Positions 6,263 to 35,128 of a stretch of 64,000 bases of DNA are shown piece by piece. Origin of the DNA: Streptomyces antibioticus (GTDB taxonomy: Bacteria; Actinomycetota; Actinomycetes; Streptomycetales; Streptomycetaceae); assembly GCF_001514065.1 (NCBI RefSeq), contig NZ_KQ948431.1:139434-203433 (forward strand), given 5' to 3'. Both the position numbers and the translations under genes were made by a program. Positions within the stretch are counted from its first letter, which is position 1. Each line of letters opens with the position of its first letter. The notes below the pieces were generated by a model. The model did no database searches and was not told the DNA's origin. It worked only from the letters and a program-made list of their open reading frames with translations.

Positions 6263-8548
6263 GTGGAACGTGCGCAGGAACGTGCCTCGACGACCGGCTC
6301 CGCCCTGGAGCTGCTGGTCCACGGGGTGGGCGGGACGACGCCCGAGAAGATGCTCGACGATCCGCGGACCGTGCGGATCACCGGCGACGACACGGCGGCC
6401 GTGTTCCGGCGCGCCGAGGACGTCGACGCCGACACCGGGCGACCCGAGGGGCACGGCGATCAGCCGGTGCCCGAGGCGTACGTCTGGTGCAATCTCACCT
6501 CCGGCAACTCCTCCCGCGCGCTGTGGCTCTTGCTGCTGCCGTTCATGGTGGTCAACCTCGCCCACTGGATGCGCCCGAGCGCCCGCGGCCGTACCCGGAC
6601 GGTCCGCCTGTACGGGCTGCTGGTGCGGCTCGCCGCCCTGACCCTGACGGTGCTGCTGGTCGCGGCGGTCTGCGAGGTCGCCCTCGACCTGACCGCCTGG
6701 CAGTGCGCGGGCACGCGCGCGTGCGCCGACCGGCACACCTGGCTGGGCTTCCTGTCCCCGACCGTCTCCGACGGCGGCTGGTGGAGCCGCCCCGGCCGCC
6801 GCCTCGCCCTCGCCGCCCTGCTGCCCGCCGCGCTGACCGGCCTGCTGTGGTACCTGTCCCACCGCACCTGGAACGCGTACGAGTCCCAGCAGCCCCTGAC
6901 CCACCCGGCCGAGCACGACGAGGACACCGCCCGCACCGCCCTCGGCCGCCCCGGCTTCTGGTACGGCCGCCGGCTGGTGGCCCGGCTGCGCGCCGCGCAC
7001 ACCGCCGCGGCCCTGCTCACCGTCGCCGCGGCCGTCGCCTCGGCGGCGGCCGGCTTCGACCGCCGCACGGGCGGACCCGCCCCGCTCGACACGCTCGGCC
7101 GGCTGCTGTTCCTGGCGATCGCCGCCGACGGGGTGGTCGTCGTCTGGGTGGTGTGCCGCCGGGGCCGCAGCGAGCACCGCCTCGACCGGGGGCTCGACGA
7201 GCATCTCGTACGGCGTCTGCCGCTCGCCGCGCTCGTGCTGCTCCTGCTCACCCTCGTGTACGCGGGCTGGGAGCGGCCGGGCTGGGAGTCGCGGGGGCGG
7301 CTGCCGGGGGACGCGACCTTCGGCGGCATCACCCTGGTCCAGGGGCTGATCGTGATCGTCCTGGCCGTCGTCGCCCGCGTCCTGCACCGTACGCACCCCG
7401 ACCCACGCGCCGCGATGCGCGGCCTCGGCGGCCCCGCGGTCGCGATGCTGGCCTGCGCGCTCGGCGGGGTGATGTCCGGCGGGGTCTCCCAGCGGGTCTC
7501 CGACTGGCTGGACGGCACCGGCGCCTCGATCCCCGGCCCGCCGGTCCTGCTGACCTGGCAGGCATCCGTCATCCCGCCGCTCCTCGTCGTCCTGCTGATC
7601 CTGGGCGGCTGGCTGGGCCGACGGGCCTGGCGGCTGCGCCGGGCCGAGCTGACCGCCATCGACACCGACTACCCGGGAGAACCCAAGGACCGGGCCCGCA
7701 CCCGCGGCATCGCCACCGCCCGCGCCCTGGCCACCCTCACCGACCGGGCCCCGCGCATCCTCGGCGTCATCTCCGCCGTCACCCTGCTCCTGGGCGCGGG
7801 CGCGCTGGTCGGCGCGATGACGACGCAGAAGGTGCCCGCCGAGGCGGCGGGAGACTCGTACGCCTTCCTCCAGGGCACCGCCGACACCGCGCAGGCGCTC
7901 GGCTCCTGGCTGATCGGGTTCGGCTTCATACTCTTCGTCACCTGGGGCAGGCGCGCCTACAAGGACCCCTCCGCCCGCCGCACCATCGGCATCCTGTGGG
8001 ACGTCGGCACCTTCTGGCCGCGCGCCGCGCACCCCTTCGCGCCGCCCTGCTACGCCGAGCGCGCGGTACCCGACCTCACCTGGCGGGTGGCCACCTGGAC
8101 CCGCGCCACCGGCGGCCGCCTGGTGATCTCCGGGCACTCCCAGGGCAGCGTCCTCGCCGCCGCAGCAGCCTGGCAACTCACCCCCGCCGACCGCCGCCGG
8201 GTCGCCCTGCTCACCTACGGCTCACCGCTGGAACGCCTCTACGGCCGCTGGTTCCCCGCCCACTTCGGACCGGCCGCACTGAGCGCCCTCCACCACGACG
8301 TCGCCTGCTGGCGCAATCTGTACCGGCCCACCGACCCCATCGGCGGCCCCATGCGCCTGTCCGGCGAATGCGGCCCCGAGGTCGACCACGAACCCCTCAA
8401 GGACCCCCTCGCCTACGGCCGCACCGAGCAGCATCCGCTGCCGGCCCCGATCCTCGGCCACTCCGACTACCAGGCCGACCCGGCGTTCGCGCAGGAGCGG
8501 GCGAGACTGCTGGCGAGGCTGCGCCCGGACGTACCGGCGCAGCGGTAG
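6263..8548 (+). CDS. Polytopic membrane protein with C-terminal serine-hydrolase (GHSQG) motif
   Basis: The 761-residue protein begins with a short soluble segment (LELLVHGVGGTTPEKML), itself resembling the first strand and oxyanion HG of an alpha/beta hydrolase. About eight to ten hydrophobic segments follow (residues about 90-580). The C-terminal soluble part contains VISGHSQGSVLAAAAAW, a textbook nucleophile elbow, plus a likely acid region (YRPTDPIGGP) and a late His (ILGHSDYQ). This looks like a hydrolase fold interrupted by a membrane domain. The substrate is unknown; lipid or ester is a guess. The start GTG 6263 follows GGGGGAAGAG; GTG 6182 would add 27 residues. The stop is 7 bp from the convergent AAA+ gene. 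Confidence 0.85.
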   Translation: MERAQERASTTGSALELLVHGVGGTTPEKMLDDPRTVRITGDDTAAVFRRAEDVDADTGRPEGHGDQPVPEAYVWCNLTSGNSSRALWLLLLPFMVVNLAHWMRPSARGRTRTVRLYGLLVRLAALTLTVLLVAAVCEVALDLTAWQCAGTRACADRHTWLGFLSPTVSDGGWWSRPGRRLALAALLPAALTGLLWYLSHRTWNAYESQQPLTHPAEHDEDTARTALGRPGFWYGRRLVARLRAAHTAAALLTVAAAVASAAAGFDRRTGGPAPLDTLGRLLFLAIAADGVVVVWVVCRRGRSEHRLDRGLDEHLVRRLPLAALVLLLLTLVYAGWERPGWESRGRLPGDATFGGITLVQGLIVIVLAVVARVLHRTHPDPRAAMRGLGGPAVAMLACALGGVMSGGVSQRVSDWLDGTGASIPGPPVLLTWQASVIPPLLVVLLILGGWLGRRAWRLRRAELTAIDTDYPGEPKDRARTRGIATARALATLTDRAPRILGVISAVTLLLGAGALVGAMTTQKVPAEAAGDSYAFLQGTADTAQALGSWLIGFGFILFVTWGRRAYKDPSARRTIGILWDVGTFWPRAAHPFAPPCYAERAVPDLTWRVATWTRATGGRLVISGHSQGSVLAAAAAWQLTPADRRRVALLTYGSPLERLYGRWFPAHFGPAALSALHHDVACWRNLYRPTDPIGGPMRLSGECGPEVDHEPLKDPLAYGRTEQHPLPAPILGHSDYQADPAFAQERARLLARLRPDVPAQR

Positions 8549-8555
8549 CGCCAGG

Positions 8556-10994
8556 TCAGGGGAGTTCCGGCAGGTCCTCCGCGAACAGCAGCGTCAGGTC
8601 GTCCTTGCTCGGCTCCGCGACCTGGGCGACCCGGCTCGCGTGGCGTTCCACCATCGCCTCGAAGGTCTGGCGGGCGGTGCGGCCGTTGCCGAACGCGGGG
8701 CCCTTCGGGATCGCCGTGAAGTACTTCAGCAAGGCCTCCGGCGCGCCCTGCGCCAGCCGGTACTCGTGCTCGTCCGCCTGCTGCTCGACGATCCTCAGCA
8801 GTTCGTCGGGCGCGTAGTCGCCGAAGGTGATGGTCCGCGAGAAGCGGGACGCCACACCGGGGTTGACCGACAGGAAGCGCTCCATCTCGGCCGTGTAGCC
8901 CGCGACGATCACCACGACCGCGTCCCGGTGGTCCTCCATCAGCTTCACGAGCGTGTCGATGGCCTCCTTGCCGAAGTCACGGCCGGAGTCCTCCGGTGAC
9001 AGCGCGTACGCCTCGTCGATGAACAGCACTCCGCCGCGCGCCCTGTCGAAGGCCTCCTGGGTGCGGATGGCCGTCGAGCCGATGTGCTCGCCGACCAGGT
9101 CGACGCGGGACACCTCGACGAGATGGCCCTTCTCCAGCACGCCGAGGGAGGCGAGGATCTCGCCGTAGAGCCGGGCGACGGTGGTCTTGCCGGTGCCGGG
9201 GGAGCCGGTGAAGACCAAGTGCCGTTTGACGGACGCCGCCTTGAGGCCCGCCTCCTGCCGGCGGCGGCCGACCTCGATCATGTCGGTGAGGGCCCGCACC
9301 TCGCGCTTGACGCTGTCCAGGCCCACCAGCGCGTCGAGTTCACCGAGGACGGCCTTCGACGTGCGCGAGGGCTGCTCCGGCTCGGTGGGGGCGACCGGCG
9401 GTTCCTGCTCGGTGGTGCGCTGCCCGGGGATGGTGCCGAGCAGGCCGGGGGACTGGCTCGCCGTCTGCACGGCGGTCTCCGGAGCGGCGGCGGGCCGCAG
9501 GCCCATGCTCTCGTCGCTCGTGCAGTCCTCGACGACCGGACCCGTGCCGGAACCGGTGTCGGGCCCCGCGTCCGCGAACTCGTAGCCGCCGCGCGCGCAC
9601 CGCTCGGTACGGCACTTGCGCAGGGTCGCGCGGCAGCCGTCTATGACGTGGAAGCCGTAGCCGGCGCTGCCCGTCACACGGCAGTTGAGGAAGCTGCCCC
9701 GGCCGCCCGCGGAGACGTAGAAGCCGGCCTCGGCGGGGGAGTCGACCGTGCAGCGCTCGATGGTGGGGTCGGCGCCCTTGGTGACGATCACGCCGGTCTG
9801 GGTGCCGTCCACCGTGCAGTTGTTGAGGGTGCCGCCGCTGCCGTGGTCGCGGAACCAGGCGCCGGTCGCGGCGTCGCGGATACGGCAGTCGTCGAGTTGC
9901 GCGGTGGCGCCGTCGCTCACCGAGACGGCCGTGTTGCGCACCTGGGAGAGGTCGCTGTCGACGACGTCCGCGCGGGAGCCGCGGTCGAGGACGAACAACG
10001 CGTCCGGCACGTCGTGCACCCGGCAGGAGTCCAGCACCGCGGTGGCGCCGTCGCTGACCCACACCGCCGGGTAGTCGCCGGTGCTGTCGAAGATCTCGCA
10101 CTGGTTGGCGTCCACGCGGGTGCCCGGGTCCCACACCGACAGGCCGTTGCGCCCGAACTGACGCACCGTCGTGCGGGTCAGCGTCAGGACCGAGCGGGAG
10201 CGCAGGTCCACCGCGTTCTCGGGGATGTCGTGGATGCGGCAGTCGGCCAGGGTCAGCACGGCGTCCGTGTCGAGGGTGACCCCGTCGGCGGTGGTGCGGT
10301 GGACATCGCAGTCCGTGAGATGCGCGGTGGCCCGGCCCGTGACCTGGACGCCGCTGCCCCGCACCTCGTAGACCTCGCAACCCACCGCTTCCAGCGCGGA
10401 GTTCTCCCCGGTCGCCGAAAGACCCACGCCCGAGGCGTGGTGCACCCGGCAGCGCTCCAGGCGCGGGTGGCCGCCGCCGCGGACCGCGACACCGGCCTGA
10501 CCGGCGGCGACGACCTCGCACTCCTCGAACACCCCGCCCCCGCCGTCGAGTACGGCGATGCCGACCCCGGCCGGGTTGTCGACCGTGCAGCGACGCACCG
10601 TCGGGCGGGCGCCGCCGCGCACCTCGATGCCGGCCGCGGACCGGGTGACGATCCGGATGTCCGTCAGCTCGGGAGTGCCCTCCTCGACGAGCAGCGCCGG
10701 AGCCGCCGCGTCCTGGCCCTCCACATGCAGGTCCTGCACCACGGCCGAGGCCCGCACGGTGAGCGGCACCCCGTCCACCGGCGCGATCCGCACCGAACCG
10801 GGCGAGCCCTCGGGGCCACGCAGGGTCACCGCCCGCTGCACGACGAGGTTCTCCCGGTAGGTGCCGGGGGCGATGGTGAGGACGTCGCCCTCGGCCGCGG
10901 CCTCCAGGGCGGCGGCGAGCGACGCGTACTCACCCGTGCGGCGCCGCCACCGCGATGTGCCGGTGTGCGTCACCTGGACCGTGCCCTGTGCCAT
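8556..10994 (-). CDS. Right-handed beta-helix repeat protein fused to a CbxX/CfqX-type AAA+ ATPase
   Basis: The 812-residue protein has two parts. Residues about 25-480 are right-handed parallel beta-helix repeats, shown by recurring turns such as [16 protein letters not shown] and [16 protein letters not shown], opening with the pectate-lyase-like [17 protein letters not shown]. After a Pro/Gln/Thr linker, residues about 545-812 are an AAA+ domain of the CbxX/CfqX/SpoVK/EccA group, with Walker [12 protein letters not shown], Walker [12 protein letters not shown], sensor [10 protein letters not shown] and an arginine-finger region [12 protein letters not shown]. The beta-helix lacks a signal peptide, so the protein should be cytoplasmic, perhaps coupling ligand or partner binding to remodelling. 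The start is ATG 10994 ([12 protein letters not shown]). Confidence 0.92.
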
Positions 10995-25377: not shown

Positions 25378-26403
25378 TTGTTACGAGTTCACTTCACCGC
25401 CGAGGACCTGGCGCACGTCACGGTCGCCACGGCGCTGGACCCGCTGTGGGAGACGATGCTCGGCGTCCAGCAACTGAGTCAGGGAGCGCGGGGGACGCCC
25501 GCTCTGAAGGGCTGGCGGCGGCAGGCACGCGGCGTCATCGGGCACGGCGAACGGGCCGGCGCGGTGAGAATGCTGAGCACCCTGCTGCCTGCCCACGGCT
25601 ACTTCCCGGACTTCCTCACACCGGCCGCGGCGGAGGCAGGGCTGAGCGCCGGCCTCGACGCGGTCCGCGCCACCCCGCGGCACCGGCTGCGCGGCGAACT
25701 GGAACAGCTCGTCGGCGCCGCGCGGCCGCAGCGCCGGCCGGTGTCGGCCTGGATGCAGGACCTGGCCCGCGCGGACCGCGGGCGGATGGCCGACCTGGCC
25801 GAGGCCATCCGGACCGTGCACGACAGCGTGATCGCCCCGGACTGGTCGGAGGCCGAGGCCCAGGTCGAAGGGGACCGCGCGCGACAGGCACGGATCCTGC
25901 GGGACTCCGGGACGGACGGTCTGCTCGGCTCGCTGAGCCCGCTCGTGCGCTGGGAACCGCCGGTGCTGCATGTCGCCTACCCGGTCGACCGTGACCTGCT
26001 GCTGGCCGGACGGGGGCTGAGGCTGATTCCGTCGTACTTCTGCCGCCGTTCGCCGATCGCGCTGGCCGACGCGGGACTGCGCCCGGTGCTGGTCTATCCC
26101 GTCGACCACAGCGTGCACCGCGCCGTTCCGGCCTCGTGCGAGACCTCTCCGCAGGCGCTGGGCCAGCTGCTGGGCCGTACCCGGGCGCGTACGCTGACGG
26201 CGCTGCACGAAGCGGCCACCACCGGCGAACTCGCGCGCCGACTGCGGATCTCGCCGGCCTCGGCCAGCCAGCACGTGCACGCGTTGGCCGCCGCCAATCT
26301 CGTACGCAGCCACCGCACCGGCAACCATGTGCTGCACACCCTGACCCCGCTCGGCGCGGCCGTGCTGACCGGGCGTCTTCCGGGCAACAGGGCCGTGACC
26401 TGA
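25378..26403 (+). CDS. DUF5937/ArsR-type winged-helix regulator with a TTA second codon
   Basis: The 341-residue protein begins with the family-typical LRVHFTAEDLAHVTVATALD, then a long helical N-terminal domain (residues about 1-230). It ends with an ArsR-like winged helix (about 255-335: TTGELARRLRISPASASQHV and HTLTPLGAAVLTGRL). An in-frame TGA 42 bp upstream leaves TTG 25378 as the only usable early start, with AGGGGGA about 10 bases before it; the next Met is residue 27, inside the conserved region. Codon 2 is TTA, the rare leucine codon read by bldA tRNA in Streptomyces, so translation is probably development-dependent. It is the first gene of the peptide island. Confidence 0.85.
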   Translation: MLRVHFTAEDLAHVTVATALDPLWETMLGVQQLSQGARGTPALKGWRRQARGVIGHGERAGAVRMLSTLLPAHGYFPDFLTPAAAEAGLSAGLDAVRATPRHRLRGELEQLVGAARPQRRPVSAWMQDLARADRGRMADLAEAIRTVHDSVIAPDWSEAEAQVEGDRARQARILRDSGTDGLLGSLSPLVRWEPPVLHVAYPVDRDLLLAGRGLRLIPSYFCRRSPIALADAGLRPVLVYPVDHSVHRAVPASCETSPQALGQLLGRTRARTLTALHEAATTGELARRLRISPASASQHVHALAAANLVRSHRTGNHVLHTLTPLGAAVLTGRLPGNRAVT

Positions 26404-26915
26404 GGTTTTCGGCGCCTGCTGAAACGGTTGGCCGGTCAGGTGCCGCACCCCGCAGGCTGGGGGGAACCATCCGGGGGGTTTGACCGGCCCCGACCGGAAG
26501 ACCAGGGGGATCTGGCATGACATCTCGCGCGCCCTGCCCGGCTGTGCCGACCGAACCGCTCGCCGACGCCGAGACGCCGGGAAGACCCGCGCGCGTCTAG
26601 GACGAGTCGCCTTCGGGCGACGGGACTTCAGGGCGACCGACCGCAGGGCCGAACCCGCATCCACCGCCGTGGCCGATGCAGGGGCGTCGTGCCGCGTCGG
26701 CCTGGACAGGCGGCGCGTGCGGTTTCCGGGCGGGTGCGTTGCGGCCTGCTCGCGTCTCGCGCCTCCGTGGCGCTGCGGCCGATCCGCCGCGCCGACATGA
26801 GGTCGGCGGCCTTGCCTGTCGCGCCGCGGGCGCCCCGGACGGCTGCGCCTTGCGGTGCCCTTCGTCCTTGTCCTGGACACCGGCCTGCTTCCCCATCACC
26901 GATCAAGGAGTACGA
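26404..26915. other. 512-bp gap between the two regulators of the peptide island
   Basis: There is no long gene in this stretch. It contains one short candidate frame with a good ribosome site (26517-26600, listed separately) and related GGCCGGTC and GACCGGCC motifs near 26430-26490. The right end carries AAGGAG, the ribosome site of the AraC gene. Longer open frames here lack ribosome sites and family similarity, and I treat them as GC-driven. Confidence 0.4.
26517..26600 (+). CDS. Possible 27-residue small protein
   Basis: ATG 26517 is preceded by AGGGGGATCT at suitable spacing and opens a 27-codon frame starting MTSRAPCPAVPTEP and ending RPARV before TAG. It has one cysteine and is rich in Pro and Ala. 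It could be a leader peptide or a chance frame. It is listed because the ribosome site is good and it lies in a long gap between two regulators. Confidence 0.25.
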   Translation: MTSRAPCPAVPTEPLADAETPGRPARV

Positions 26916-27926
26916 GTGGAGAACGTCTCGGAGTCTGTCCTGTACGAGGGACACGACCTGGCGCGCATGCACGACGTGGTGGCCGCCCAGTTCGCCCCGC
27001 ACCGGCTGAGACTCCTCGGAAAGCCGGCCGCGCCGGCCCGTCTGCTCAGGAGCGGCACGCAAGGCGACATCGCCCTCTACCGCTTGGGCCACGGAGCCGA
27101 GGTCGAGATACGCCCCGTCCCCCAGCACGGCTCGTATCTGATCCACCTGCCGCTGGCCGGCCGCAGCAGTCTGGTGGTCGACGGAGAACCCGTGGCCACC
27201 ACGCACGATGTCGTCAGCCCGGGACAACGGCTGGAGATCCGCCGTTCCCACGACAACGACATGATGATCGTGCGTATCCCGCGACCGGTGCTCGACCGGG
27301 CGGTCGAGTCGCACGGCATCACCGCCGACCGGGGTGCTCCGGTCCGTTTCGCGCCCGCCGTCGACAGCCGATGTCCCGGCTCACGCGCCTGGCTGCGCAC
27401 GCTGCACGCCTATGCCGAGGCGATGCAGAGCGGACTGCTGGCCCGCTCGCCGCTCGGGGCCCGGCACTTCGAACAGCTGCTGGTGCACGGGCTGCTGGAC
27501 AGCCAGCCCAGCGGCCTCAGCGAGTCCCTGCGGCGCTCCGCCCGGCATGCCGCGCTGCCGAGCGCACTGCGCCGGGCGATCACGTACTGCGAGGAGCACG
27601 CCGCCGAACCGGTGTCCACCGCCGACATCGCGCTCGCCTCGCGGCTGAGTGTCCCGGCCCTGCGGGCCGCCTTCCGCGCCCACCTCGACCTCACGCCGCT
27701 CATGTACCTGCGCAGGGTCAGGCTCGACGCCGCACACCGGGACCTGGTCGCGATCGCCGAGGGCCGGGACGACGGCACGGTCACCGACGTGGCACTGCGC
27801 TGGGGCTTCGTCCACCTGGGACGCTTCGCCGCGTTCTACAAGGCCACCTACGGCATGCCGCCGTCGAGCACGGCCGGTCTGCGCGACTATCCGGAAACCG
27901 CTCGTATCCGGTCCGCCTGCGGATAG
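26916..27926 (+). CDS. AraC-family transcriptional regulator
   Basis: The 336-residue protein has an N-terminal AraC-binding-like cupin region (residues about 30-190; HGSYLIHLPLAGRSSLVVDG and VSPGQRLEIRRSHDNDMMIV). The C-terminal AraC double helix-turn-helix covers about 215-325 (STADIALASRLSVPALRAAF, LDLTPLMYLRRVRLDAAHRD, DVALRWGFVHLGRFAAFYKA). The start is GTG 26916, with AAGGAG seven bases upstream; longer in-frame readings lack a ribosome site. It sits 107 bp before the cysteine-rich peptide gene in the same direction and is the obvious local activator candidate for it. Confidence 0.9.
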   Translation: MENVSESVLYEGHDLARMHDVVAAQFAPHRLRLLGKPAAPARLLRSGTQGDIALYRLGHGAEVEIRPVPQHGSYLIHLPLAGRSSLVVDGEPVATTHDVVSPGQRLEIRRSHDNDMMIVRIPRPVLDRAVESHGITADRGAPVRFAPAVDSRCPGSRAWLRTLHAYAEAMQSGLLARSPLGARHFEQLLVHGLLDSQPSGLSESLRRSARHAALPSALRRAITYCEEHAAEPVSTADIALASRLSVPALRAAFRAHLDLTPLMYLRRVRLDAAHRDLVAIAEGRDDGTVTDVALRWGFVHLGRFAAFYKATYGMPPSSTAGLRDYPETARIRSACG

Positions 27927-27986
27927 TTCGTCAACTGCCTCTTCCCTAGCGTTGGTTGCACGAAAGCGGGTCCACCAGGACTCGAC

Positions 27987-28006
27987 CGGCCGGGGATTCC
28001 CGGCCG
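27987..28006 (+). promoter_or_regulatory. 8-bp hairpin in the leader of the peptide gene
   Basis: CGGCCGGG (27987-27994) pairs with CCCGGCCG (27999-28006) around loop GATT, 15 bases before the GGGAGGAG ribosome site of the peptide gene. It could terminate AraC-gene transcripts or stabilise the peptide mRNA 5' end. Confidence 0.4.
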
Positions 28007-28033
28007 ACGCACACCCACACGGGAGGAGACACC

Positions 28034-28255
28034 ATGAGCACGCTGAGCGCCCTCGCCGACAAGCTGCTGAGCCACATCGTGCCGAGTCAGGCCGCGCATG
28101 CCGCGTCGACCGGTGCCAACGGCTGCTGGATCGAGCAGCGGGTCTGCAACCCGCACTGCCCCTTCTGGTACTACAAGGAGGACCTCTACTGGAAGTGCAG
28201 CGACGGCACCTCCTTCTGGTCGCAGACGGGCTGCACGGAGTCGGACAACTGCTGA
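28034..28255 (+). CDS. Precursor of a disulfide-rich secreted peptide (73 aa, six Cys)
   Basis: I do not recognise a named family. The N-terminal part (residues 1-24, MSTLSALADKLLSHIV then PSQAAHAA) is amphipathic rather than strongly hydrophobic and ends in AHA/HAA, a plausible signal-peptidase-type cleavage site. The rest (about 49 residues) has six cysteines at 31, 38, 42, 55, 67 and 73, enough for three disulfides. It also has four tryptophans (32, 45, 53, 62) within aromatic clusters, and is net acidic. ATG 28034 has an excellent GGGAGGAG site. It is followed by MauE, MauD-like, ABC exporter and signal peptidase genes, which fits oxidative folding, export and leader cleavage of this product. 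Function (bacteriocin, signal or other) is inferred only. Confidence 0.8.
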   Translation: MSTLSALADKLLSHIVPSQAAHAASTGANGCWIEQRVCNPHCPFWYYKEDLYWKCSDGTSFWSQTGCTESDNC

Positions 28256-28296
28256 CCCGTGCCCCCGAGTCGGCACAGTGACGTGACCTGAACGAA

Positions 28297-28329
28297 GCGT
28301 CGCGCCCCGGTGATAGCGGGGCGCGACGC
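28297..28329 (+). terminator. Perfect 13-bp hairpin between peptide gene and mauE
   Basis: GCGTCGCGCCCCG (28297-28309) pairs without mismatch with 28317-28329 around a 7-nt loop. It lies 41 bp after the peptide stop and 22 bp before the next start. A partial terminator or RNA-stabilising element here would give much more peptide mRNA than machinery mRNA, an arrangement common in bacteriocin operons. Confidence 0.75.
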
Positions 28330-28351
28330 GTCATCCAGAGGTGAACCCTCC

Positions 28352-28885
28352 ATGGCCCATGTTCTCATCTCCTGCCGTGCCTTCATCGCTCTCGTGTTCG
28401 TCCTGTCCGTGGCGGGCAAGCTCAGGGGCCGGCACGCCTTCCTCGAATTCACCGACTCCGTAAAGGCGTTGGCCCCCCGTCTGCCCGTCCGTTCCACCGC
28501 GGTGGCGGTGGTCGCCACGGAAGCGGTGATCGTCGTCCTGCTCGCACTGCCGGTGACGCCCCTCGTCGGATTCGTTCTCGCCACCGGGTTGCTGGGCGCC
28601 TTCACCGTGGCGATCGGGGCGAGTGTCCGGCAGGGCCGGCAGGTCGCCTGCCGCTGCTTCGGCACGGCCTCCTCGGCCCCCGTGGGCCTCGCGCACCTGG
28701 TCAGAAACGCGTTCCTGCTGGCCGGTTCGCTGACCGGCATGCTCGTGGCCCCGGCGGCGGGCGCGGACGCGGGCGGCGCCCCCGGCGTGACCACCTCGCT
28801 CGTGTTCGGCGCCGCGGCCGCCGGCGTGACCCTGCTCACCGACGACATCTCCCGCCTGTTCCGGCCGCTGAGCCAAGAAGGGTAA
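28352..28885 (+). CDS. MauE/DoxX-family redox-associated membrane protein
   Basis: The 177-residue protein has four hydrophobic segments and the MauE-type cysteine pair in ACRCFGTASSAPVG (Cys100 and Cys102), after a first segment FIALVFVLSVAGKLRG. In methylamine utilisation operons MauE works with MauD to form the disulfides of the methylamine dehydrogenase small subunit. Here the only Cys-rich partner is the 73-residue peptide just upstream. The start is ATG 28352 with an AGAGGTG site. The next gene begins 5 bp after its stop. Confidence 0.88.
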   Translation: MAHVLISCRAFIALVFVLSVAGKLRGRHAFLEFTDSVKALAPRLPVRSTAVAVVATEAVIVVLLALPVTPLVGFVLATGLLGAFTVAIGASVRQGRQVACRCFGTASSAPVGLAHLVRNAFLLAGSLTGMLVAPAAGADAGGAPGVTTSLVFGAAAAGVTLLTDDISRLFRPLSQEG

Positions 28886-28890
28886 GAACC

Positions 28891-29445
28891 ATGCCGTACG
28901 TCATCGCACTGACCGTTCTGTTCGGAGCCCTGTGCGCGTTGAACATCGTGCTGACCGTGGGGGTCCTGCGGCGGCTGCGCGAGATCGAGGAGCGGACCGC
29001 GTACAGCGGACTGGATCTGACCCCCGGTGGCCCCGAGGTGATGCTCGCGGTGGGTGAGCAGGTGGGGCACTTCACCACCGTCACCACCGAGGGCGCCCAC
29101 CTGTCCGACGACTTCCTGACGGACGGGCACACCGTCGTCGGCGTCTTCGCGCACGGCTGCGGCAAATGCGACGAGCGGCTGCCGGAGTTTGTCGACTTCG
29201 TGCGGTCGCGCGGAACCTCCCGCGAGCGGGCGCTCGCCCTGCTGGTGGGGACGCCCGAACAGGTCGCGGCGAAGCGTGCCCTTGCCGAGCCCGTGGCCAC
29301 CGTGGTGATCGAGGAACTGGACGGCCCGGTGTCCGTGGCCCTGGCCGCCCGGGTGTACCCGGCGCTCGCGGTGATCGGCCCGGACAAGATCGTCCGGGCG
29401 GAGGGTTCCCTCATCAGGAACGTGTCGTCCCTGGTGGACGCGTGA
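28891..29445 (+). CDS. Membrane-anchored thioredoxin-like protein (MauD/TlpA type)
   Basis: The 184-residue protein has one N-terminal membrane anchor (IALTVLFGALCALNIVLTVG) and an extracytoplasmic thioredoxin-like domain. VVGVFAHGCGKCDERLPEF contains the redox CGKC motif (Cys90, Cys93) at the end of the first strand, and ARVYPALAVIGPD provides the cis-Pro. This matches MauD or TlpA thiol-disulfide oxidoreductases. With the adjacent MauE-like protein as electron partner it should form or isomerise disulfides outside the membrane. It starts 5 bp after mauE and overlaps the ABC gene by 4 bp (GTGA), so they are translationally coupled. Confidence 0.88.
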   Translation: MPYVIALTVLFGALCALNIVLTVGVLRRLREIEERTAYSGLDLTPGGPEVMLAVGEQVGHFTTVTTEGAHLSDDFLTDGHTVVGVFAHGCGKCDERLPEFVDFVRSRGTSRERALALLVGTPEQVAAKRALAEPVATVVIEELDGPVSVALAARVYPALAVIGPDKIVRAEGSLIRNVSSLVDA

Positions 29446-31283
29446 CGACGACGCGGGGCATCCTCAAGGCCCTGCGGCTGACCTGGCGTGCCACCCGCGG
29501 GGGCACCTGCGTCCTGGTGCTGCTCACCCTCGCCGGTGCCGTGACACCGGTGGCCGCCGCATGGCTGACCAAGTCGCTCCTCGACCACCTCACCCAGGGA
29601 GCCGACGCGCCCCGCGGACAGGTCGTCCTCCTGGCGGTGGGCCTGGCCGTCGCGGGACTGCTCACGGGCTGTCTGCCCCAGGTGCTCATGTACGCCAACA
29701 AGGAGTTCGAGCGCGCCGTGGGCCTGCTCGCGCAGCAGCAGCTCTACGAGGCGACCGGCCGGCTCGTCGGCCTGGCCCGCTTCGAGGACCCGGCGTTCGT
29801 GGACCGCCTCCGGCTGGCACAGCAGCACGGAGGCGCGACGCCCGGAGTCCTGGTGGCGACGCTGCTGTCCGTGGTGCGCGCGGTGGCCGTCGCCGGAGGA
29901 TTCCTGGGCTCGCTGCTGCTGCTCGCCTGGTGGCTGCCCGCGGTCGTCGTGGTCTCGGTCGTGCCGGTGCTGGCGGCGGAGATGTGGCTCGCCAAGCGCA
30001 GGGTGAACGCCTACTGGCAGATCGGCCCGACGGAACGACGCGAGATCTTCTACCGAGAACTGCTGACGAACCTTCAGGCGGTCAAGGAGATACGGCTGTT
30101 CGACCTGGGCGGGCACCTTGCCGCGCGCATGACCCGCGAGCGGATCAAGGCCAACTCGGTCCGGGCGCGGCTCGACCGTCAGGAGCTGGCGGCGCAGACA
30201 CTGACGGGTCTCGTCACCGCGAGCAGCGCGGGCGCGGCCGTGGTGTGGGCGGTGCTCGCGGCACTCGGCGGCCGCATCACCCTGGGGGACGTGTCGCTGA
30301 TGATCGCGTCCGTGGCGGGGGTCCAGTCCGCCGGGGCCGGTCTCATGCGGGACATCGCCAAGTCCCATCAGCAACTCCTCATGTTCCGGCACTACTTGTC
30401 CGTGGTCGACGGTGAACAGGACCTTCCGGTGCCGGAGAAGCCGTCCCCGGTTCCCGCGCTGACCTCGGGGGTCGAGTTCCGGGACGTGTGGTTCCGTTAC
30501 TCGCCCGATCATCCGTGGGCGCTGCGCGGCGTCAGTTTCCGTGTCCCGCACGGCCGTTCCCTCGGTCTGGTCGGACGCAACGGCGCGGGCAAGAGCACGA
30601 TCGTGAAACTGCTCTGCCGCATGTACGACCCCGACCGGGGAGCGGTCCTGTGGGACGGCGTGGACCTGCGCGACATGGACCCGGCCGAACTGCGGCGCCG
30701 GATCGGCGCGGTGTTCCAGGACTACATGACGTACGACCTGAGCGCCCACGAGAACATCGCGCTGGGCGACCTGCCGAAGGCCTCGCGCGAGCGGGTCACG
30801 GAGGCGGCGCGCCGGTCGGGCGCGGACGGCTTCGTCCGTGAACTGCCGCGCGGGTACGACACCTTGTTGTCCCGGCTCTTCTTCCAGGGCGACGACGAGG
30901 ACGGCGACGCCGACCGGGGCGTGACCCTGTCGGGCGGCCAGTGGCAGCGGCTGGCCATCGCGCGGGCGTATCTGCGCGGACGCCAGGATCTGCTGATCCT
31001 CGACGAACCCAGTTCCGGACTGGACGCCGAGACCGAGGCTCGGATTCACGGGCAGCTGCGTGAGTACCGCGGCAGTCGTACGAGTGTGCTGATCTCGCAC
31101 CGGCTGGGATCGGTGCGCGAGGCGGACGACCTGCTGGTCGTCGACGCCGGCGAGGTGGCCGAGCAGGGGACGCACGACGAGCTGATCGCACGGGGCGGGC
31201 TGTACGCCGGGATGTTCGCGGCGCAGGCGGAGGGGTACCGGTCCGAGCCCGCGGGGCCGGTGACGACAGGGGCGGCGCGGTGA
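29442..31283 (+). CDS. ABC exporter (fused membrane and ATPase domains)
   Basis: The 613-residue half-transporter has a six-helix ABC membrane domain (residues about 1-320) and a nucleotide-binding domain (about 345-600). Visible motifs are Walker A LVGRNGAGKSTIVKLL, signature LSGGQWQRLAIARA, Walker B LLILDEPSSGLD and the switch His in LISHRLGSVREAD. It has no N-terminal C39 peptidase domain, unlike classical bacteriocin exporters, so leader removal would need another protease; an S26 peptidase follows. GTG 29442 overlaps the upstream stop by 4 bp, and its own stop overlaps the next start by 4 bp. It probably exports the cysteine-rich peptide as a homodimer. Confidence 0.93.
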   Translation: MTTTRGILKALRLTWRATRGGTCVLVLLTLAGAVTPVAAAWLTKSLLDHLTQGADAPRGQVVLLAVGLAVAGLLTGCLPQVLMYANKEFERAVGLLAQQQLYEATGRLVGLARFEDPAFVDRLRLAQQHGGATPGVLVATLLSVVRAVAVAGGFLGSLLLLAWWLPAVVVVSVVPVLAAEMWLAKRRVNAYWQIGPTERREIFYRELLTNLQAVKEIRLFDLGGHLAARMTRERIKANSVRARLDRQELAAQTLTGLVTASSAGAAVVWAVLAALGGRITLGDVSLMIASVAGVQSAGAGLMRDIAKSHQQLLMFRHYLSVVDGEQDLPVPEKPSPVPALTSGVEFRDVWFRYSPDHPWALRGVSFRVPHGRSLGLVGRNGAGKSTIVKLLCRMYDPDRGAVLWDGVDLRDMDPAELRRRIGAVFQDYMTYDLSAHENIALGDLPKASRERVTEAARRSGADGFVRELPRGYDTLLSRLFFQGDDEDGDADRGVTLSGGQWQRLAIARAYLRGRQDLLILDEPSSGLDAETEARIHGQLREYRGSRTSVLISHRLGSVREADDLLVVDAGEVAEQGTHDELIARGGLYAGMFAAQAEGYRSEPAGPVTTGAAR

Positions 31284-31810
31284 GCTGGCTCCTCATCATG
31301 GTGGCGGCGACCGCCGGGTTCCTCGCCGTCGCCCGGGCGACGCTGGCCTGGGTCCGACGCGCTGTCGTCCTGGTGCTGGTGCACGGCCGGAGCATGAGTC
31401 CGGCGTATCTGCCGGGCGACTGGGTGGTGGGCCGGCGGGTGGCGACGAGGCGACTGCGCCGGGGCGATGTGGTGATCGTGGACATGCCGCCGACCGGTCA
31501 GGCACCCGAGGGCCGCACGATGCTGGGCAGGCTGACGATCAAACGGGTGGCCGCCCTGCCGGGCGAGGCGCTTCCCCCGGACGTGCCGGGCAGCGAGCCG
31601 GGCGCGTCGGTGCCCGCCGGTCATCTGTTCCTTCTGGGCGACAACCGTGCCGTGAGCAGCGACTCCCGGCACCACGGCCCGGTGCCCACGGCCTGGGTCG
31701 TCGGCCGGGCGGTGCGCAAGGCGAGCCTGCCCGGCATGAGGAGCGACCGCCCTCGGTCCGCCCCACTCGGCCGGGGTCCTCAGAGCGAACCTGCCACGCC
31801 ACCGGACTGA
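31280..31810 (+). CDS. S26-family signal peptidase
   Basis: The 176-residue type I signal peptidase has one N-terminal membrane segment. Its catalytic Ser38 lies in VHGRSMSPAYLPGDWV, Lys88 in LTIKRVAALPGE, and the conserved box E is LLGDNRAVSSDSRHHGPV. All key residues are present. The length is short compared with LepB and closer to mitochondrial Imp-type enzymes. Translational coupling to the ABC exporter (GTGA overlap) indicates a dedicated role, most simply cleaving the leader of the nearby peptide at the AHA/HAA site. The C-terminal 35 residues are Pro/Ser/Arg-rich. It is convergent with the beta-propeller gene, 11 bp apart. Confidence 0.9.
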   Translation: MSWLLIMVAATAGFLAVARATLAWVRRAVVLVLVHGRSMSPAYLPGDWVVGRRVATRRLRRGDVVIVDMPPTGQAPEGRTMLGRLTIKRVAALPGEALPPDVPGSEPGASVPAGHLFLLGDNRAVSSDSRHHGPVPTAWVVGRAVRKASLPGMRSDRPRSAPLGRGPQSEPATPPD

Positions 31811-31821
31811 CCGCGCACGCC

Positions 31822-32844
31822 CTACAGCGGAGCCGGGGACGAGGCCCCCGGGATCAGCAGCCGCGGCGTTCCCTTGCCGTCGGCGGGCACGCTCCACAGG
31901 TCGGTGCTGCCGACCTTGCCCTCGGTGGGCAGGGCGTAGGCGACGGTGTCGTCGTCGAGCCAGGTGGCCTGATCGTCGACGCTGTGGCGTTCGGCGAGCG
32001 GAGTCGCGTGCAGGGTGCGCAGATCGAGGACGTATTCGCGCCAAAGGTCGGTGCGGGAGAGCACCCGCTTCTTGAAGGCGACGCGGGTTCCGTCGGGGGA
32101 GAGGGAGGGGCACTCCACGTTCTCGACGAGCGTGGTCACCGACTTCCCCGAGATCGAACCCCGCACCAGATACGTCTTGTCGGCGGTGTTCAGGGTGGCA
32201 TAGAAGGTGTCGTCGTCGGAGGCGAAGGTGACGCCCCAGAAGTTGACGTCCGCCGCCTTGTACGGCTTGCCGTCCAGGGTGATCGAGAAGGTCTCCAGGC
32301 TGGGGACCAGCTTCATCGTGCGGGTGTCGAGGAGCGAGGTGCGGGTGGAGAAGAAGGCGGACGCGTACGACTCGCCGGAGACGAACACCGTCCAGGCGAC
32401 GAAGCGGCCGCTGGGTGAGACCCGGGCCCGGCTCGGGATGCCCGCGAGCGGGAAGGTCCGTACGGTGCGCAGCTCGGCGTCCAGGAGCAGGGCCCGGTTG
32501 CTCTGCTTGAGGACGCCGGTGTCGGACTGGAGGCAGATGCCCGTGCCCGCCGCCGCGTAGAAGCGGGCGCACTTCAGGTCGGACGCGGTCCGGCCGGCAC
32601 CGGGGTCGGCGGACGGCACCGCGGCGACGGCCGTGCGGTGCGGGCCGGCGGCCGCGTTGACGAAGGTCAGGAGGTTCTTGCGATCGAGCGTCAGTTTCCC
32701 CGAGCTGACCGCGGGTCCGCCGGCCTGCGGCCGGTTGGCCTCGTCGGCGCGGTCGTCGGCGTGCAGGACCAGGCCGGTCGCCAGACCCGCGAGCAGGACG
32801 ACCGCCGCGACGAGGACGAGCAGGCGGCGGCGGAGCGAAGTCAT
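31822..32844 (-). CDS. Membrane-anchored TolB/PD40-type beta-propeller protein
   Basis: The 340-residue protein has an N-terminal signal anchor (RRRLLVLVAAVVLLAGLATG). An extracytoplasmic domain with WD40/PD40-like repeats follows, for example RVSPSGRFVAWTVF, SLSPDGTRVAFKK and ATWLDDDTVAYALP. It probably binds a protein or glycan; no catalytic motif is seen. The preferred start is ATG 32844, with GAGGA and good spacing. The in-frame ATG 32904 (20 residues longer) overlaps the preceding micro-frame as ATGA, so coupled initiation there is also possible. It lies downstream of the MFS and GT2 genes on the same strand. Confidence 0.82.
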   Translation of the reverse strand: MTSLRRRLLVLVAAVVLLAGLATGLVLHADDRADEANRPQAGGPAVSSGKLTLDRKNLLTFVNAAAGPHRTAVAAVPSADPGAGRTASDLKCARFYAAAGTGICLQSDTGVLKQSNRALLLDAELRTVRTFPLAGIPSRARVSPSGRFVAWTVFVSGESYASAFFSTRTSLLDTRTMKLVPSLETFSITLDGKPYKAADVNFWGVTFASDDDTFYATLNTADKTYLVRGSISGKSVTTLVENVECPSLSPDGTRVAFKKRVLSRTDLWREYVLDLRTLHATPLAERHSVDDQATWLDDDTVAYALPTEGKVGSTDLWSVPADGKGTPRLLIPGASSPAPL

Positions 32845-32900
32845 GGGGTTCCTCGGGGCGGTTGTCGGTTCCGTGGTGATGTCGGAGGGTGGTACGCCGG

Positions 32901-32948
32901 TCATCGCGGCCCGCCGGACGCTCGGTCGGAGGGCGGTGTGCCGGTCAT
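32901..32948 (-). CDS. Possible 15-residue micro-ORF in repeat (copy 2)
   Basis: This frame reads MTGTPPSDRASGGPR then TGA. Its ATG overlaps the stop of the preceding micro-ORF, and its stop overlaps the ATG at 32904 of the beta-propeller frame (ATGA both times). It has no ribosome site of its own, and any translation would be by coupling. Confidence 0.25.
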   Translation of the reverse strand: MTGTPPSDRASGGPR

Positions 32949-32992
32949 CGCGGCCCGCCGGACGCTCGGTCGGAGGGCGGTGTGCCGGTCAT
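32945..32992 (-). CDS. Possible 15-residue micro-ORF in repeat (copy 1)
   Basis: This frame has the same sequence as the next micro-ORF (MTGTPPSDRASGGPR). Its ATG overlaps the TGA of the MFS transporter gene at 32989-32991. It is probably a duplication by-product, but it could pass ribosomes along the chain. Confidence 0.25.
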   Translation of the reverse strand: MTGTPPSDRASGGPR

Positions 32993-34254
32993 CGCGGCCC
33001 GCCGGACGGCCGTAGCACCACGCCCGCGACCGCCGCGCAGCACAGCAGGCCGATCGCCGAGCCGGCGAGTGCCGTGCCGTCGCCCCACATCGTCCAGGCG
33101 GCGCCGAAGGCGAGCGAGCAGCAGAACCGGGCCAGCGCCTGGCTGGTGCCGACGATGGCGAGGCCGCTGGCGCGCAGATGCTCGGGCACGACCCCGGCCA
33201 GCGCGGCCGGCAGGACGCCGTCGGTGGCCGCGTAGAACGAGCCGTGCAGGGCGAGCACGGCTGGCACCAGCAGCGGGGTGTCCGGCGCCCACAGCAGCAG
33301 GGCGTACGCGGTGAGCAGGCCGACGTGTCCGGCGAGGAACACCGTGCGCCGCCCGATCCGGTCGGCCAGCGCGCCGAGCGGCACGGCCAGCAGCAGGAAC
33401 ACCACCGCGGTGCCCAGCGGCAGCAGCGTGAACCACTCCTCGCCGACCCCCGCCCGGCGCTGGAGCAGGAGGTAGACGAACGCGTCGCTGACGGTGGTCA
33501 GCCCGAGCAGCGCGGCACAGCCCGCGAGTGCCCGCAGCCGGGGCAGCCGCAGCAGGGCGAGGGCCTCCCCGACCCGGACGGGCGGCCTCGGCTCGGCCCC
33601 GGCACCGTCCTGCGCGTCGCGCCGTTTGCCGGGCACGAACAGCAGGAGTACGACCACGCCGAGCACCGCGACGCACGCGCTCACGCCGAACACGGCGTCG
33701 TAGCCGTCGGCCGCGGCGCGCAGGATGAAGAAGGCGGCCAGCGGTCCGAGCATCGCGCCGGTGGTGTCCATCGCCCGGTGCACACCGAAGGCCCGGCCCT
33801 GCCGCTCGACCGGTGTGGACAGGGAGATCATCGCGTCGCGCGGGGCGGTGCGCAGCCCCTTGCCGGTGCGGTCCAGGGCCAGGACGGTGCCGAGGGCGCC
33901 GATGCTGCCGGCGAGCAGGAGCAGCGGCTTGCACAGCGCGGACAGGCCGTAGCCGAGGCCGGCGAGCAGCTTGTGGTTGCGGATCCGGTCGGCGAGGTGG
34001 CCGCCCGTGAGCTGGACCAGGGCGCTGACGCCGTTGTAGACGCCGTCGAGGGCACCGAAGCCCAGCGGGCTGAAACCGAGCGTGGTGACGAGGTACAGCG
34101 GGAGGACCGCGGTGACCATCTCCGAGGAGACGTCGGTGATCAGACTGACCGTGCCCAGCACGAGCACGACCGGGGCGACCTTGGGCCCCGGGCCGCGTCT
34201 TCGTCCCGGGGAGGTGTCCGCCTCCGGCGTGGCGGAGCGGTCGGTGAGGTACAT
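32989..34254 (-). CDS. MFS transporter (12 TM)
   Basis: The 421-residue protein has 12 hydrophobic segments. The MFS A-like motif GGHLADRIRNHKLLAG follows helix 2, a matching GALADRIGRRTVFLAG lies in the C-terminal half, and LDRTGKGLRTAPRDA sits in helix 4/loop. It resembles drug- or metabolite-efflux MFS proteins; the substrate is unknown. The start is ATG 34254 (MYLTDRSA), with CAGGAG about 9 bases upstream. The C-terminal PSGGPR lies inside the 44-bp tandem repeat, so the last residues were shaped by the duplication. The GT2 gene lies 25 bp upstream on the same strand. Confidence 0.9.
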   Translation of the reverse strand: MYLTDRSATPEADTSPGRRRGPGPKVAPVVLVLGTVSLITDVSSEMVTAVLPLYLVTTLGFSPLGFGALDGVYNGVSALVQLTGGHLADRIRNHKLLAGLGYGLSALCKPLLLLAGSIGALGTVLALDRTGKGLRTAPRDAMISLSTPVERQGRAFGVHRAMDTTGAMLGPLAAFFILRAAADGYDAVFGVSACVAVLGVVVLLLFVPGKRRDAQDGAGAEPRPPVRVGEALALLRLPRLRALAGCAALLGLTTVSDAFVYLLLQRRAGVGEEWFTLLPLGTAVVFLLLAVPLGALADRIGRRTVFLAGHVGLLTAYALLLWAPDTPLLVPAVLALHGSFYAATDGVLPAALAGVVPEHLRASGLAIVGTSQALARFCCSLAFGAAWTMWGDGTALAGSAIGLLCCAAVAGVVLRPSGGPR

Positions 34255-34279
34255 GATCAGGACTCCTGGTGCGCTGCGT

Positions 34280-35128
34280 TCAGTTCTGCCGGCTGCTGTC
34301 GTCCCGCAGCCAGGTGTCGAAGTCCCTTGCCCGGATGGCCTTTTGGGCCCGTCGCCGGGAGACGACCGCCGCCGCGGCGAAGACGACGACACTCATGATC
34401 AGCTTGGGCTCGCTGCGGAGCATGGCCTTGAGGTCCGCCGTGCTGGTGCGGGCCGAGGCCTCTTCCGGCCTGCGATGTTCCTCGACCTGTGCCGTGGAGA
34501 CCATGGCCCGGATCCGGCGTTTGATCAAGTCCCGCCACGTGCGTGGCGGATGGACCACCACCCGCGCCCCGGCGACCACGCGCCGCTCCTCGGCGGTGAA
34601 CGCGAGCGACGCGGCCAGGTCGTCCGCCATCAACGGAGGCAGCGCGGCGATCCGGGCGTGCCCCTCCTTGGAGACCGCGATGACACCCCGGCCGAACAGG
34701 CCCTCGCGCACCGCCGGGAGGCGTTGCCACACCCGGTAGTAGGCGCGCACCCGCCAGGCGCAGCCGGCCAGCGGGAGGTGACGTTCGGGGGCGGTGGCGA
34801 GAATGCCCGAGGTGCCGTCGGCCAGCGGCTCGGCGAGGGCTCGTACGTCCGTGCTCGTGAGGACGACGTCGGCGTCCACGTAGATCCGGGGGAAGCCGAG
34901 CGCGTGCTCGTCGCCCGCGCGCAGCGCCGCGTGCTTGGAGGGGACCGGGATCTCCACCACCGTTACGCGCGGGCCGCGTTCGGATGCGATCCGGGCCGTG
35001 TCGTCGGTGCAGCCGTTGCACACGACGACGATGTCCGCCCGGTCGTCCGCAGGGTCGTCCAGCAGCGAATCGAGGAGCCGGCCGATGACGCGCTCCTCGT
35101 TGTGCGCCGGTATCACAATGCTCGTCAC
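34280..35128 (-). CDS. Glycosyltransferase family 2
   Basis: The 282-residue protein has a GT-A fold: TSIVIPAHNEERVIGRLLDS, VVCNGCTDDTARIA, and the metal-binding region PRIYVDADVVLTSTDVRAL. It carries one C-terminal hydrophobic segment (SVVVFAAAAVV), so it should be membrane-associated with a cytosolic catalytic domain. The acceptor is unknown. It heads the minus-strand group GT2-MFS-beta-propeller, divergent from the exopolysaccharide operon, and may contribute to that polymer. The start is GTG 35128. Confidence 0.88.
   Translation of the reverse strand: MTSIVIPAHNEERVIGRLLDSLLDDPADDRADIVVVCNGCTDDTARIASERGPRVTVVEIPVPSKHAALRAGDEHALGFPRIYVDADVVLTSTDVRALAEPLADGTSGILATAPERHLPLAGCAWRVRAYYRVWQRLPAVREGLFGRGVIAVSKEGHARIAALPPLMADDLAASLAFTAEERRVVAGARVVVHPPRTWRDLIKRRIRAMVSTAQVEEHRRPEEASARTSTADLKAMLRSEPKLIMSVVVFAAAAVVSRRRAQKAIRARDFDTWLRDDSSRQN

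Follow-up and report, generated by a model that had tools for sequence, protein, structure and literature searches.

A MauE-containing gene cassette in Streptomyces antibioticus and other actinobacteria as a likely route to secreted, disulfide-paired small peptides

The stretch of Streptomyces antibioticus DNA analysed here (64,000 nucleotides of a 10.1 Mb genome, hereafter the window) contains five genes on one strand, encoding a small cysteine-rich precursor peptide, a MauE-like membrane protein, a membrane-anchored thioredoxin, an ABC exporter and an S26 peptidase. We consider it likely that these genes and their relatives form a leader-guided line for secreted small peptides whose cysteines are all paired in disulfides, three of them in the product of the window. 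An initial annotation of this DNA had pointed out the five genes, together with the six Cys and four Trp of the precursor, the CRC motif of MauE, the CGKC motif of the thioredoxin, an exporter lacking a C39 domain, the S26 peptidase and the tight spacing. Pfam and NCBIfam models and motif reading bore out all these features and their coordinates. It had further proposed oxidative folding, export and cleavage of one secreted peptide. The comparisons below support such a line through linked inheritance in shuffled gene orders, even cysteine numbers and a cleavage motif beside an S26 gene. They do not support its restriction to one peptide, and reveal instead a large family with hypervariable cores.

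The line that we infer would start with ribosomal synthesis of a precursor, whose non-hydrophobic leader of ~23 residues would act as a shared recognition tag. The MauE–thioredoxin pair would then oxidise or shuffle the cysteines of the core, by charge patterns at the cytoplasmic face of the membrane, after which the dedicated ABC exporter would carry the peptide out and the S26 peptidase would cleave after an AxA site. A hairpin behind the precursor gene might favour output of the precursor over that of the machinery. The same machinery would handle many unrelated cysteine-rich cores in different strains.

Linkage of the five genes was examined in 128 loci, comprising the window, 60 loci from other genomes of the same genus (of 70 MauE places), 38 from further genomes of the class (of 40 places) and 29 named loci reached via the exporter; removal of one duplicate left 127. 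MauE, thioredoxin, ABC exporter and S26 peptidase all occurred within the stretch examined in 101 of these loci. A precursor was found in 97 of the 101 (95 by the leader profile; L080 and L081 by eye), and in 108 of the 127 loci overall. The initial annotation had suggested a search for small cysteine-rich frames beside MauE homologues, and had named loss of the small frame from otherwise intact sets as one outcome that would speak against a peptide system; the small frame proved to be retained. Gene order was variable, with 41 arrangements (a few possibly mis-sorted where the longest open reading frames overlap), of which the commonest was that of the window, precursor–MauE–thioredoxin–ABC–S26, at 42 loci. 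Linkage that survives such shuffling argues for a joint function.

Precursors were found in Streptomyces, Microbispora, Nonomuraea, Actinomadura, Micromonospora, Nocardiopsis, Kribbella and other genera. The MauE searches scored 8 to 12 candidates per genome and the leader searches 58, and hence the counts per genome are lower bounds. The MauE of the window had matches in at least 59 of 392 genomes of the same genus (E ≤ 1e-8), and the MauE profile in at least 23 of 296 genomes of the class (E ≤ 1e-18), at up to six places per genome. A scan of the phylum gave matches in at least 68 of 396 genomes at E ≤ 1e-10. Judged by score, strong MauE proteins of the cassette type were not seen beyond the class, as none exceeded 84 bits except those of the window and of one genome of the same genus.

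The shared leader of ~23 residues has no hydrophobic stretch of the signal-peptide type and follows the consensus L..L.(G/A)DRLL..(L/V)VP....A.A. Among 49 cluster representatives, Ala occupied position -1 in all 49 and position -3 in 47, and Pro occupied position -7 in 47. Signal peptidase I classically cuts at AxA sites, and the place of this motif at the end of the leader fits the co-encoded S26 gene. Seeding of the leader profile used 18 leaders, taken from the window and from genus loci, before retraining on the full set of loci. The retrained profile found a precursor in 53 of 60 genus loci, 27 of 38 class loci and 26 of 29 named loci, figures that are partly circular because the profile was trained on all of them. 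The starting profile alone recovered a cysteine-rich precursor in 27 of the 38 class loci and 24 of the 29 named loci.

Searches with the leader alone served as an independent test. In the genome of the window, the precursor scored E 8e-7 and the next best frame E 0.66 (150 best of 417 candidates scored). In 150 genomes of the same genus there were at least 31 matches at E ≤ 1e-3, the window included, all of them beside cassette genes or remnants; 27 coincided with places of the MauE search. The other four adjoined, in turn, a contig-end S26 gene (L322), S26 with a partial ABC gene (L323), a full cassette (L324) and thioredoxin, ABC and S26 genes (L325). L323 (G096:C6:7964756-7980821) holds nothing but these two genes and a precursor-like frame, and is apparently a decaying copy of the cassette. 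Seven weaker matches (E 0.0018–0.0099) were left out of the count; two of them (L326, L327) were inspected and had no adjoining cassette gene. As a control, 51 loci of more distant ABC exporters yielded no cysteine-rich precursor, no S26 peptidase, no thioredoxin of the cassette type and two MauE-like genes; one of them (L263) had a weak leader-like match with no cysteine-rich core. Exporter relatives above 400 bits mostly occurred with the cassette, and the 51 relatives of 174–260 bits without it. These relatives were the best 80 of 537, and the line between named loci (L189–L217, 29) and control loci (L218–L268, 51) was set after the scores had been seen. The control loci are mostly not actinobacterial, which makes the genome-wide leader searches the better control.

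The small frame behaves as a genuine gene, and its conservation is more than chance. Streptomyces sp. LUP30 (L189), the nearest named relative (exporter 90% identical), has a precursor of unchanged length, with 12 synonymous and 12 non-synonymous changes over its 73 codons (non-synonymous rate dN 0.086, synonymous rate dS 0.356). In genome G226 (L033), all six cysteines are kept despite 30 non-synonymous changes (dN 0.40, dS 0.95). Both ratios are below one half, as estimates from one short gene. The precursor of the window had no match in Pfam or NCBIfam and none in the PDB at E ≤ 10 as a single sequence, and a tblastn search against plasmids gave a single match at chance level (E 0.7).

The 123 precursors comprised 116 unique cores, which fell into 49 clusters at 50% identity and showed 75 different cysteine spacings. 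Mean identity among cluster representatives was 0.37 for leaders, 0.26 for cores and 0.24 for shuffled cores. The representative cores had 28–51 residues and 4–10 Cys. Fourteen loci (L057, L158, L038, L039, L205 and nine others) had two or three precursors each, with similar leaders and different cores. In the subgroup of the window core, all 11 aligned cores carry DG a short distance past the fourth Cys. A Foldseek search with a model of the window peptide returned laterosporulin3 as first match (E 0.32) and laterosporulin as third (E 0.60), neither of them significant, and a profile of the 11 related cores gave no defensin or laterosporulin match and a single unrelated one (E 1.5).

Hypervariable cores on a common machinery are what diversifying selection on weapons or signals would be expected to produce, and the peptides are probably antimicrobial. 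Alternatively, they might serve in development or signalling, as a morphogen or pheromone, which we regard as rather doubtful. Such a role would agree with the lack of a recognised immunity gene and with the regulators that adjoin many loci. However, the variability of the cores between strains and the patchy presence of the MauE gene within the genus (59 of 392 genomes with a match) fit competition better. Large BTAD/NB-ARC (SARP-type) or related regulators, which are typical of natural-product clusters, lay near 48 of the 107 loci whose precursor was found by profile. This BTAD family was assembled by single linkage, and five of six sampled members had a BTAD domain while one did not. The window has an AraC-family gene instead, and its position upstream makes it a possible regulator of the cassette.

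Of the 116 unique cores, 115 had an even number of cysteines, as did 48 of the 49 representatives (binomial p 9e-14, treating clusters as independent); this would follow from complete pairing of the residues in disulfides. In contrast, counts of W, Y, G, S, T, N, A and D were each even in only 21–27 of the 49 representatives. Five precursors outside this count (L080, L081, L322, L324 and L325) have 6, 6, 6, 10 and 10 Cys, that of L081 counted by eye. With three disulfides, the window core of 50 residues has a calculated monoisotopic mass of 5766.32.

Two cassette proteins carry redox motifs that could serve this pairing. The C-x-C-F-G motif of MauE was invariant in 23 of 23 aligned members, and was missing at two of 61 loci. 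The CxxC motif of the thioredoxin was invariant in 21 of 21 aligned members. In four class loci (L184, L185, L187 and L188, at about 6524–7864 in each) MauE and thioredoxin form a single open reading frame, and the two therefore act together there. These four loci have an adjoining ABC gene of related type, and neither a leader-type precursor nor an S26 gene was found in them; they are apparently a variant of the cassette. The MauE model (predicted local distance difference test, pLDDT, 90.6) has five long helices and one shorter one, with CRC in the loop that joins the third long helix to the fourth, and gave no significant PDB match (best E 0.74). To our knowledge, the biochemistry of MauE-type proteins is poorly known.

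Charge patterns suggest that both redox sites face the cytoplasm. Across 23 MauE sequences, the mean number of K and R was 3.9 before the second transmembrane helix and 2.65 in the CxC loop, with 0.17 and 0.22 in the two loops of the opposite side. On the C-terminal side of the thioredoxin anchor, K/R were more numerous than on the other side in 100 of 106 proteins and less numerous in 3. By the positive-inside rule, these distributions would place the CxC motif of MauE and the thioredoxin domain inside. The topology control was limited to two proteins encoded in the same genome, an AhpC-TSA protein and a canonical signal peptidase, which had their basic residues before the segment as expected. 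Cytoplasmic redox sites would mean that oxidation and folding may precede export, and cytoplasmic disulfide relays have precedents in thermophilic archaea. We tentatively suggest a conotoxin-like bacterial system, in which one leader and one cassette serve many unrelated disulfide scaffolds, and in which a MauE–thioredoxin relay sets the disulfides at the cytoplasmic face before the folded peptide is exported, reversing the usual extracytoplasmic order; at present this is possible rather than probable.

The same topology could be read in the opposite sense. MauE and thioredoxin might keep the cysteines reduced, or isomerise disulfides, while oxidation occurs spontaneously outside the cell; the predicted position of both motifs on the reducing, cytoplasmic side is what one would then expect. 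We find this unlikely, because even cysteine numbers suggest a fully paired end product and a dedicated pair for reduction alone seems less needed in the cytosol. It nonetheless counts against an oxidative line, and several other observations weigh in the same direction. Four of the 101 full cassettes had no detected precursor (L052, L072, L089 and L166), although L052 starts at a contig end, 38 bp before MauE. Among the 107 loci with a profile-found precursor, MauE was undetected in 6, S26 in 5, a full-length ABC exporter in 4 and thioredoxin in 1, some of them at contig ends. L184–L188 have matches of the MauE, thioredoxin and ABC type, but S26 and a leader-type precursor went undetected. 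One core (L042) has seven Cys. The S26 proteins had their K/R excess after the segment in 65 of 98 cases and before it in 14, with uncertain starts, which leaves the S26 topology, and with it the place where the leader would be cut, ambiguous. Finally, the commonest neighbour families included no recurrent gene recognisable as an immunity gene.

Metal binding by the core, as in a metallothionein or metallophore, would also give even cysteine numbers if the thiolate ligands were paired, and 4–10 Cys in 28–51 residues is a suitable density. Yet 75 different spacings, export, and thioredoxin and MauE as partners make this very improbable, as do the four commonest neighbour families examined, which are regulators and an ABC ATPase and include no metal genes. 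Least probable of all is a tryptophylquinone-like cofactor or cross-link made from Trp and Cys with the help of MauE as in methylamine dehydrogenase maturation, an idea that draws on MauE homology and on the Cys and Trp of the window core and that we rejected since 27 of 116 unique cores lack Trp, the thioredoxin reaches only 15.8 of 188.6 bits on the MauD model, and no gene of the methylamine dehydrogenase type was present among the ten window proteins scanned. With Trp missing from so many cores, it cannot be the common substrate and is not a feature that the family shares.

The spacer behind the precursor gene tends to fold. Spacers to the next gene had a mean folding z of -2.37, with 48 of 94 below -2, whereas random stretches taken from these loci gave a mean of -0.14, with 5 of 94 below -2. 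The test covered those 94 of the 123 precursors with a same-strand cassette gene 30–400 bp downstream, whose start was estimated from the profile match. The hairpin in the window spacer (z -3.9) has no T tract, and no terminator-like site was found; the hairpin is therefore likelier to be an attenuator or a protector of the transcript's 3' end than a terminator.

In the window (Table 1), 96 bp separate the precursor gene from mauE, and among the last four genes neighbours are separated by 5 bp or share 4 bp. MauE matched PF07291 with 77.3 bits (cut-off 27), carries the motif ACRCFG and had no NCBIfam match. The thioredoxin had been called MauD-like in the initial annotation. It is indeed an anchored CGKC protein, but it falls far below the cut-off of TIGR02661 and also below that of AhpC-TSA in Pfam (18.6 bits, cut-off 26), so that by curated model it is not MauD and is only distantly MauD-like. 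The exporter matched ABC_tran with 102.7 bits and ABC_membrane with 17.7 bits, the latter under the cut-off of 28, and had no Pfam match to C39. The S26 peptidase matched PF10502 (81.8 bits) and TIGR02227 (76.4 bits), both above cut-off, with Ser and Lys motifs GRSMSP and IKRVAALPG.

Table 1. Cassette features and the neighbouring regulator in the window.
Feature	Position	Strand	Basis
AraC-family regulator, upstream, start putative	26676..27926	+	AraC_binding_2, HTH_18
Precursor peptide gene, 73 aa (23-aa leader and 50-aa Cys/Trp-rich core; 6 Cys, 4 Trp)	28034..28255	+	Leader profile, codon comparison
Leader, ending in AxA-type site AHA, Pro at -7	28034..28102	+	
Predicted mature core, 50 aa, six Cys	28103..28252	+	Cleavage position inferred
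GC-rich hairpin in precursor/mauE spacer, 13-bp stem, 7-nt loop, no T tract	28297..28329	+	
MauE-like membrane protein	28352..28885	+	Pfam PF07291
Membrane-anchored thioredoxin-fold protein, CGKC	28891..29445	+	Motif, single N-terminal hydrophobic segment
ABC exporter, membrane and ATPase parts fused, no C39 peptidase	29442..31283	+	Pfam ABC_tran
S26 peptidase of signal peptidase I type with Ser/Lys motifs, candidate for leader removal	31280..31810	+	PF10502, TIGR02227

The leader profile found no precursor in L046, L052, L072, L076, L080, L081, L089, L160, L166, L175, L178, L180, L182, L184–L188, L201, L206 and L210. Among these, L201 and L210 are contig-edge pieces, and in L046, L076, L160 and L182 a MauE gene of the same family stands alone in the stretch examined, with none of the other cassette genes. 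The precursor of L081 (2192–2404, plus strand) escaped the profile; like the window core, its core has a C-x-P-x-C-x-F-W stretch and DG following the fourth Cys. In L186, one doubtful cysteine-rich frame was picked by eye (9515–9817, minus strand). One genome (G137:C1:4347797-4359923) has two equal-scoring MauE places in opposite orientation, ~12 kb apart, with a leader match at each; the ABC match is split in the copy at L075. The genome of the window has a second MauE-like frame (28.7 bits; G000:C4:840426-841168; L002, L280), which adjoins an AhpC-TSA thioredoxin (103 bits), and has no good leader match outside the window.

If our reading is correct, actinobacteria contain a large, nearly unmined and widespread class of disulfide-rich peptides. 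Very different cores would then be exported and folded under the guidance of one short leader, a property of use in the production of disulfide peptides, and MauE-type proteins would gain a simple peptide substrate. The precursors resemble those of ribosomally synthesised and post-translationally modified peptides (RiPPs) in the broad sense, in that they are short and ribosomal, with a conserved leader of one type and a variable core in 116 unique versions. Modification of the core by disulfides is indicated indirectly by the even cysteine numbers, and leader removal by a dedicated protease, likewise indirectly, by the AxA site and the co-encoded S26 gene.

Several known systems resemble the cassette in part. 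Methylamine dehydrogenase maturation likewise involves a member of the MauE Pfam family and a CxxC thioredoxin with a membrane anchor. Unlike that system, however, the cassette has a hypervariable small substrate, no match to the MauD model and no conserved Trp. Double-glycine bacteriocins combine a leader-bearing Cys peptide with a dedicated C39 ABC exporter. In contrast, the cassette has no C39 domain, an AxA instead of a GG site, and a separate S26 peptidase. The main text of a 2023 review of RiPP leader proteases contains neither 'S26' nor 'signal peptidase' (PMC10885120).

In the class I lasso peptide humidimycin, the available text proposes that the DoxX-family protein HumE and the thioredoxin-domain protein HumF form the disulfides of an exported peptide, much as we propose here (PMC7168211). 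Lasso peptides differ in their B and C enzymes and isopeptide ring; a Pfam scan of ten window proteins (25378 to 35128) found no lasso cyclase or B protease. Actifensin (PMC6989792) and laterosporulin are small disulfide-stabilised peptides, like the predicted product of the window. The actifensin locus as described differs in having a subtilisin-like protease, a LuxR gene and several ABC genes, and the paper mentions no thioredoxin, signal peptidase or MauE (PMC6989792). Bacterial cis-defensins, as described in the accessible text of a recent survey, are small secreted Cys-rich peptides as well, but the survey kept only sequences with a predicted signal peptide and one cysteine pattern (PMC11561630), whereas the present precursors have a non-hydrophobic leader and 75 spacings.

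The closest precedent is decRiPPter, which according to its main text listed three mauE-containing candidate RiPP families in Streptomyces, one of them also with mauD (Kloosterman et al., 2020; PMC7794033). The relevant passages propose a role for these genes in RiPP modification and report no experiments on the families. Like the window, they combine mauE and a Cys-rich precursor with, by the filter used, a transporter, a peptidase and a regulator (PMC7794033). The idea of a peptide system is thus anticipated in outline by decRiPPter. The initial annotation had regarded such a set as apparently undescribed for a peptide product. This holds for the full set, as no publication describing it was among the matches listed in the literature searched (with most subscription journals outside the search), but not for the MauE–peptide association. 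In the literature searched, decRiPPter was the only paper to mention MauE together with RiPP. By main-text description, each decRiPPter precursor has at least 8 Cys, versus six in the window and 4 to 10 in its relatives; that main text nowhere uses the terms 'S26', 'signal peptidase' or 'thioredoxin', and its relevant passages describe no shared leader, even-Cys rule or spread beyond Streptomyces (PMC7794033). Compared with this outline, and as far as our literature search shows, the present analysis adds a leader common to the precursors, the S26 gene and the rule of even Cys numbers. It further adds the hypervariability of the cores, their occurrence across many genera, the hairpin behind the precursor gene and the membrane face predicted for the redox sites.

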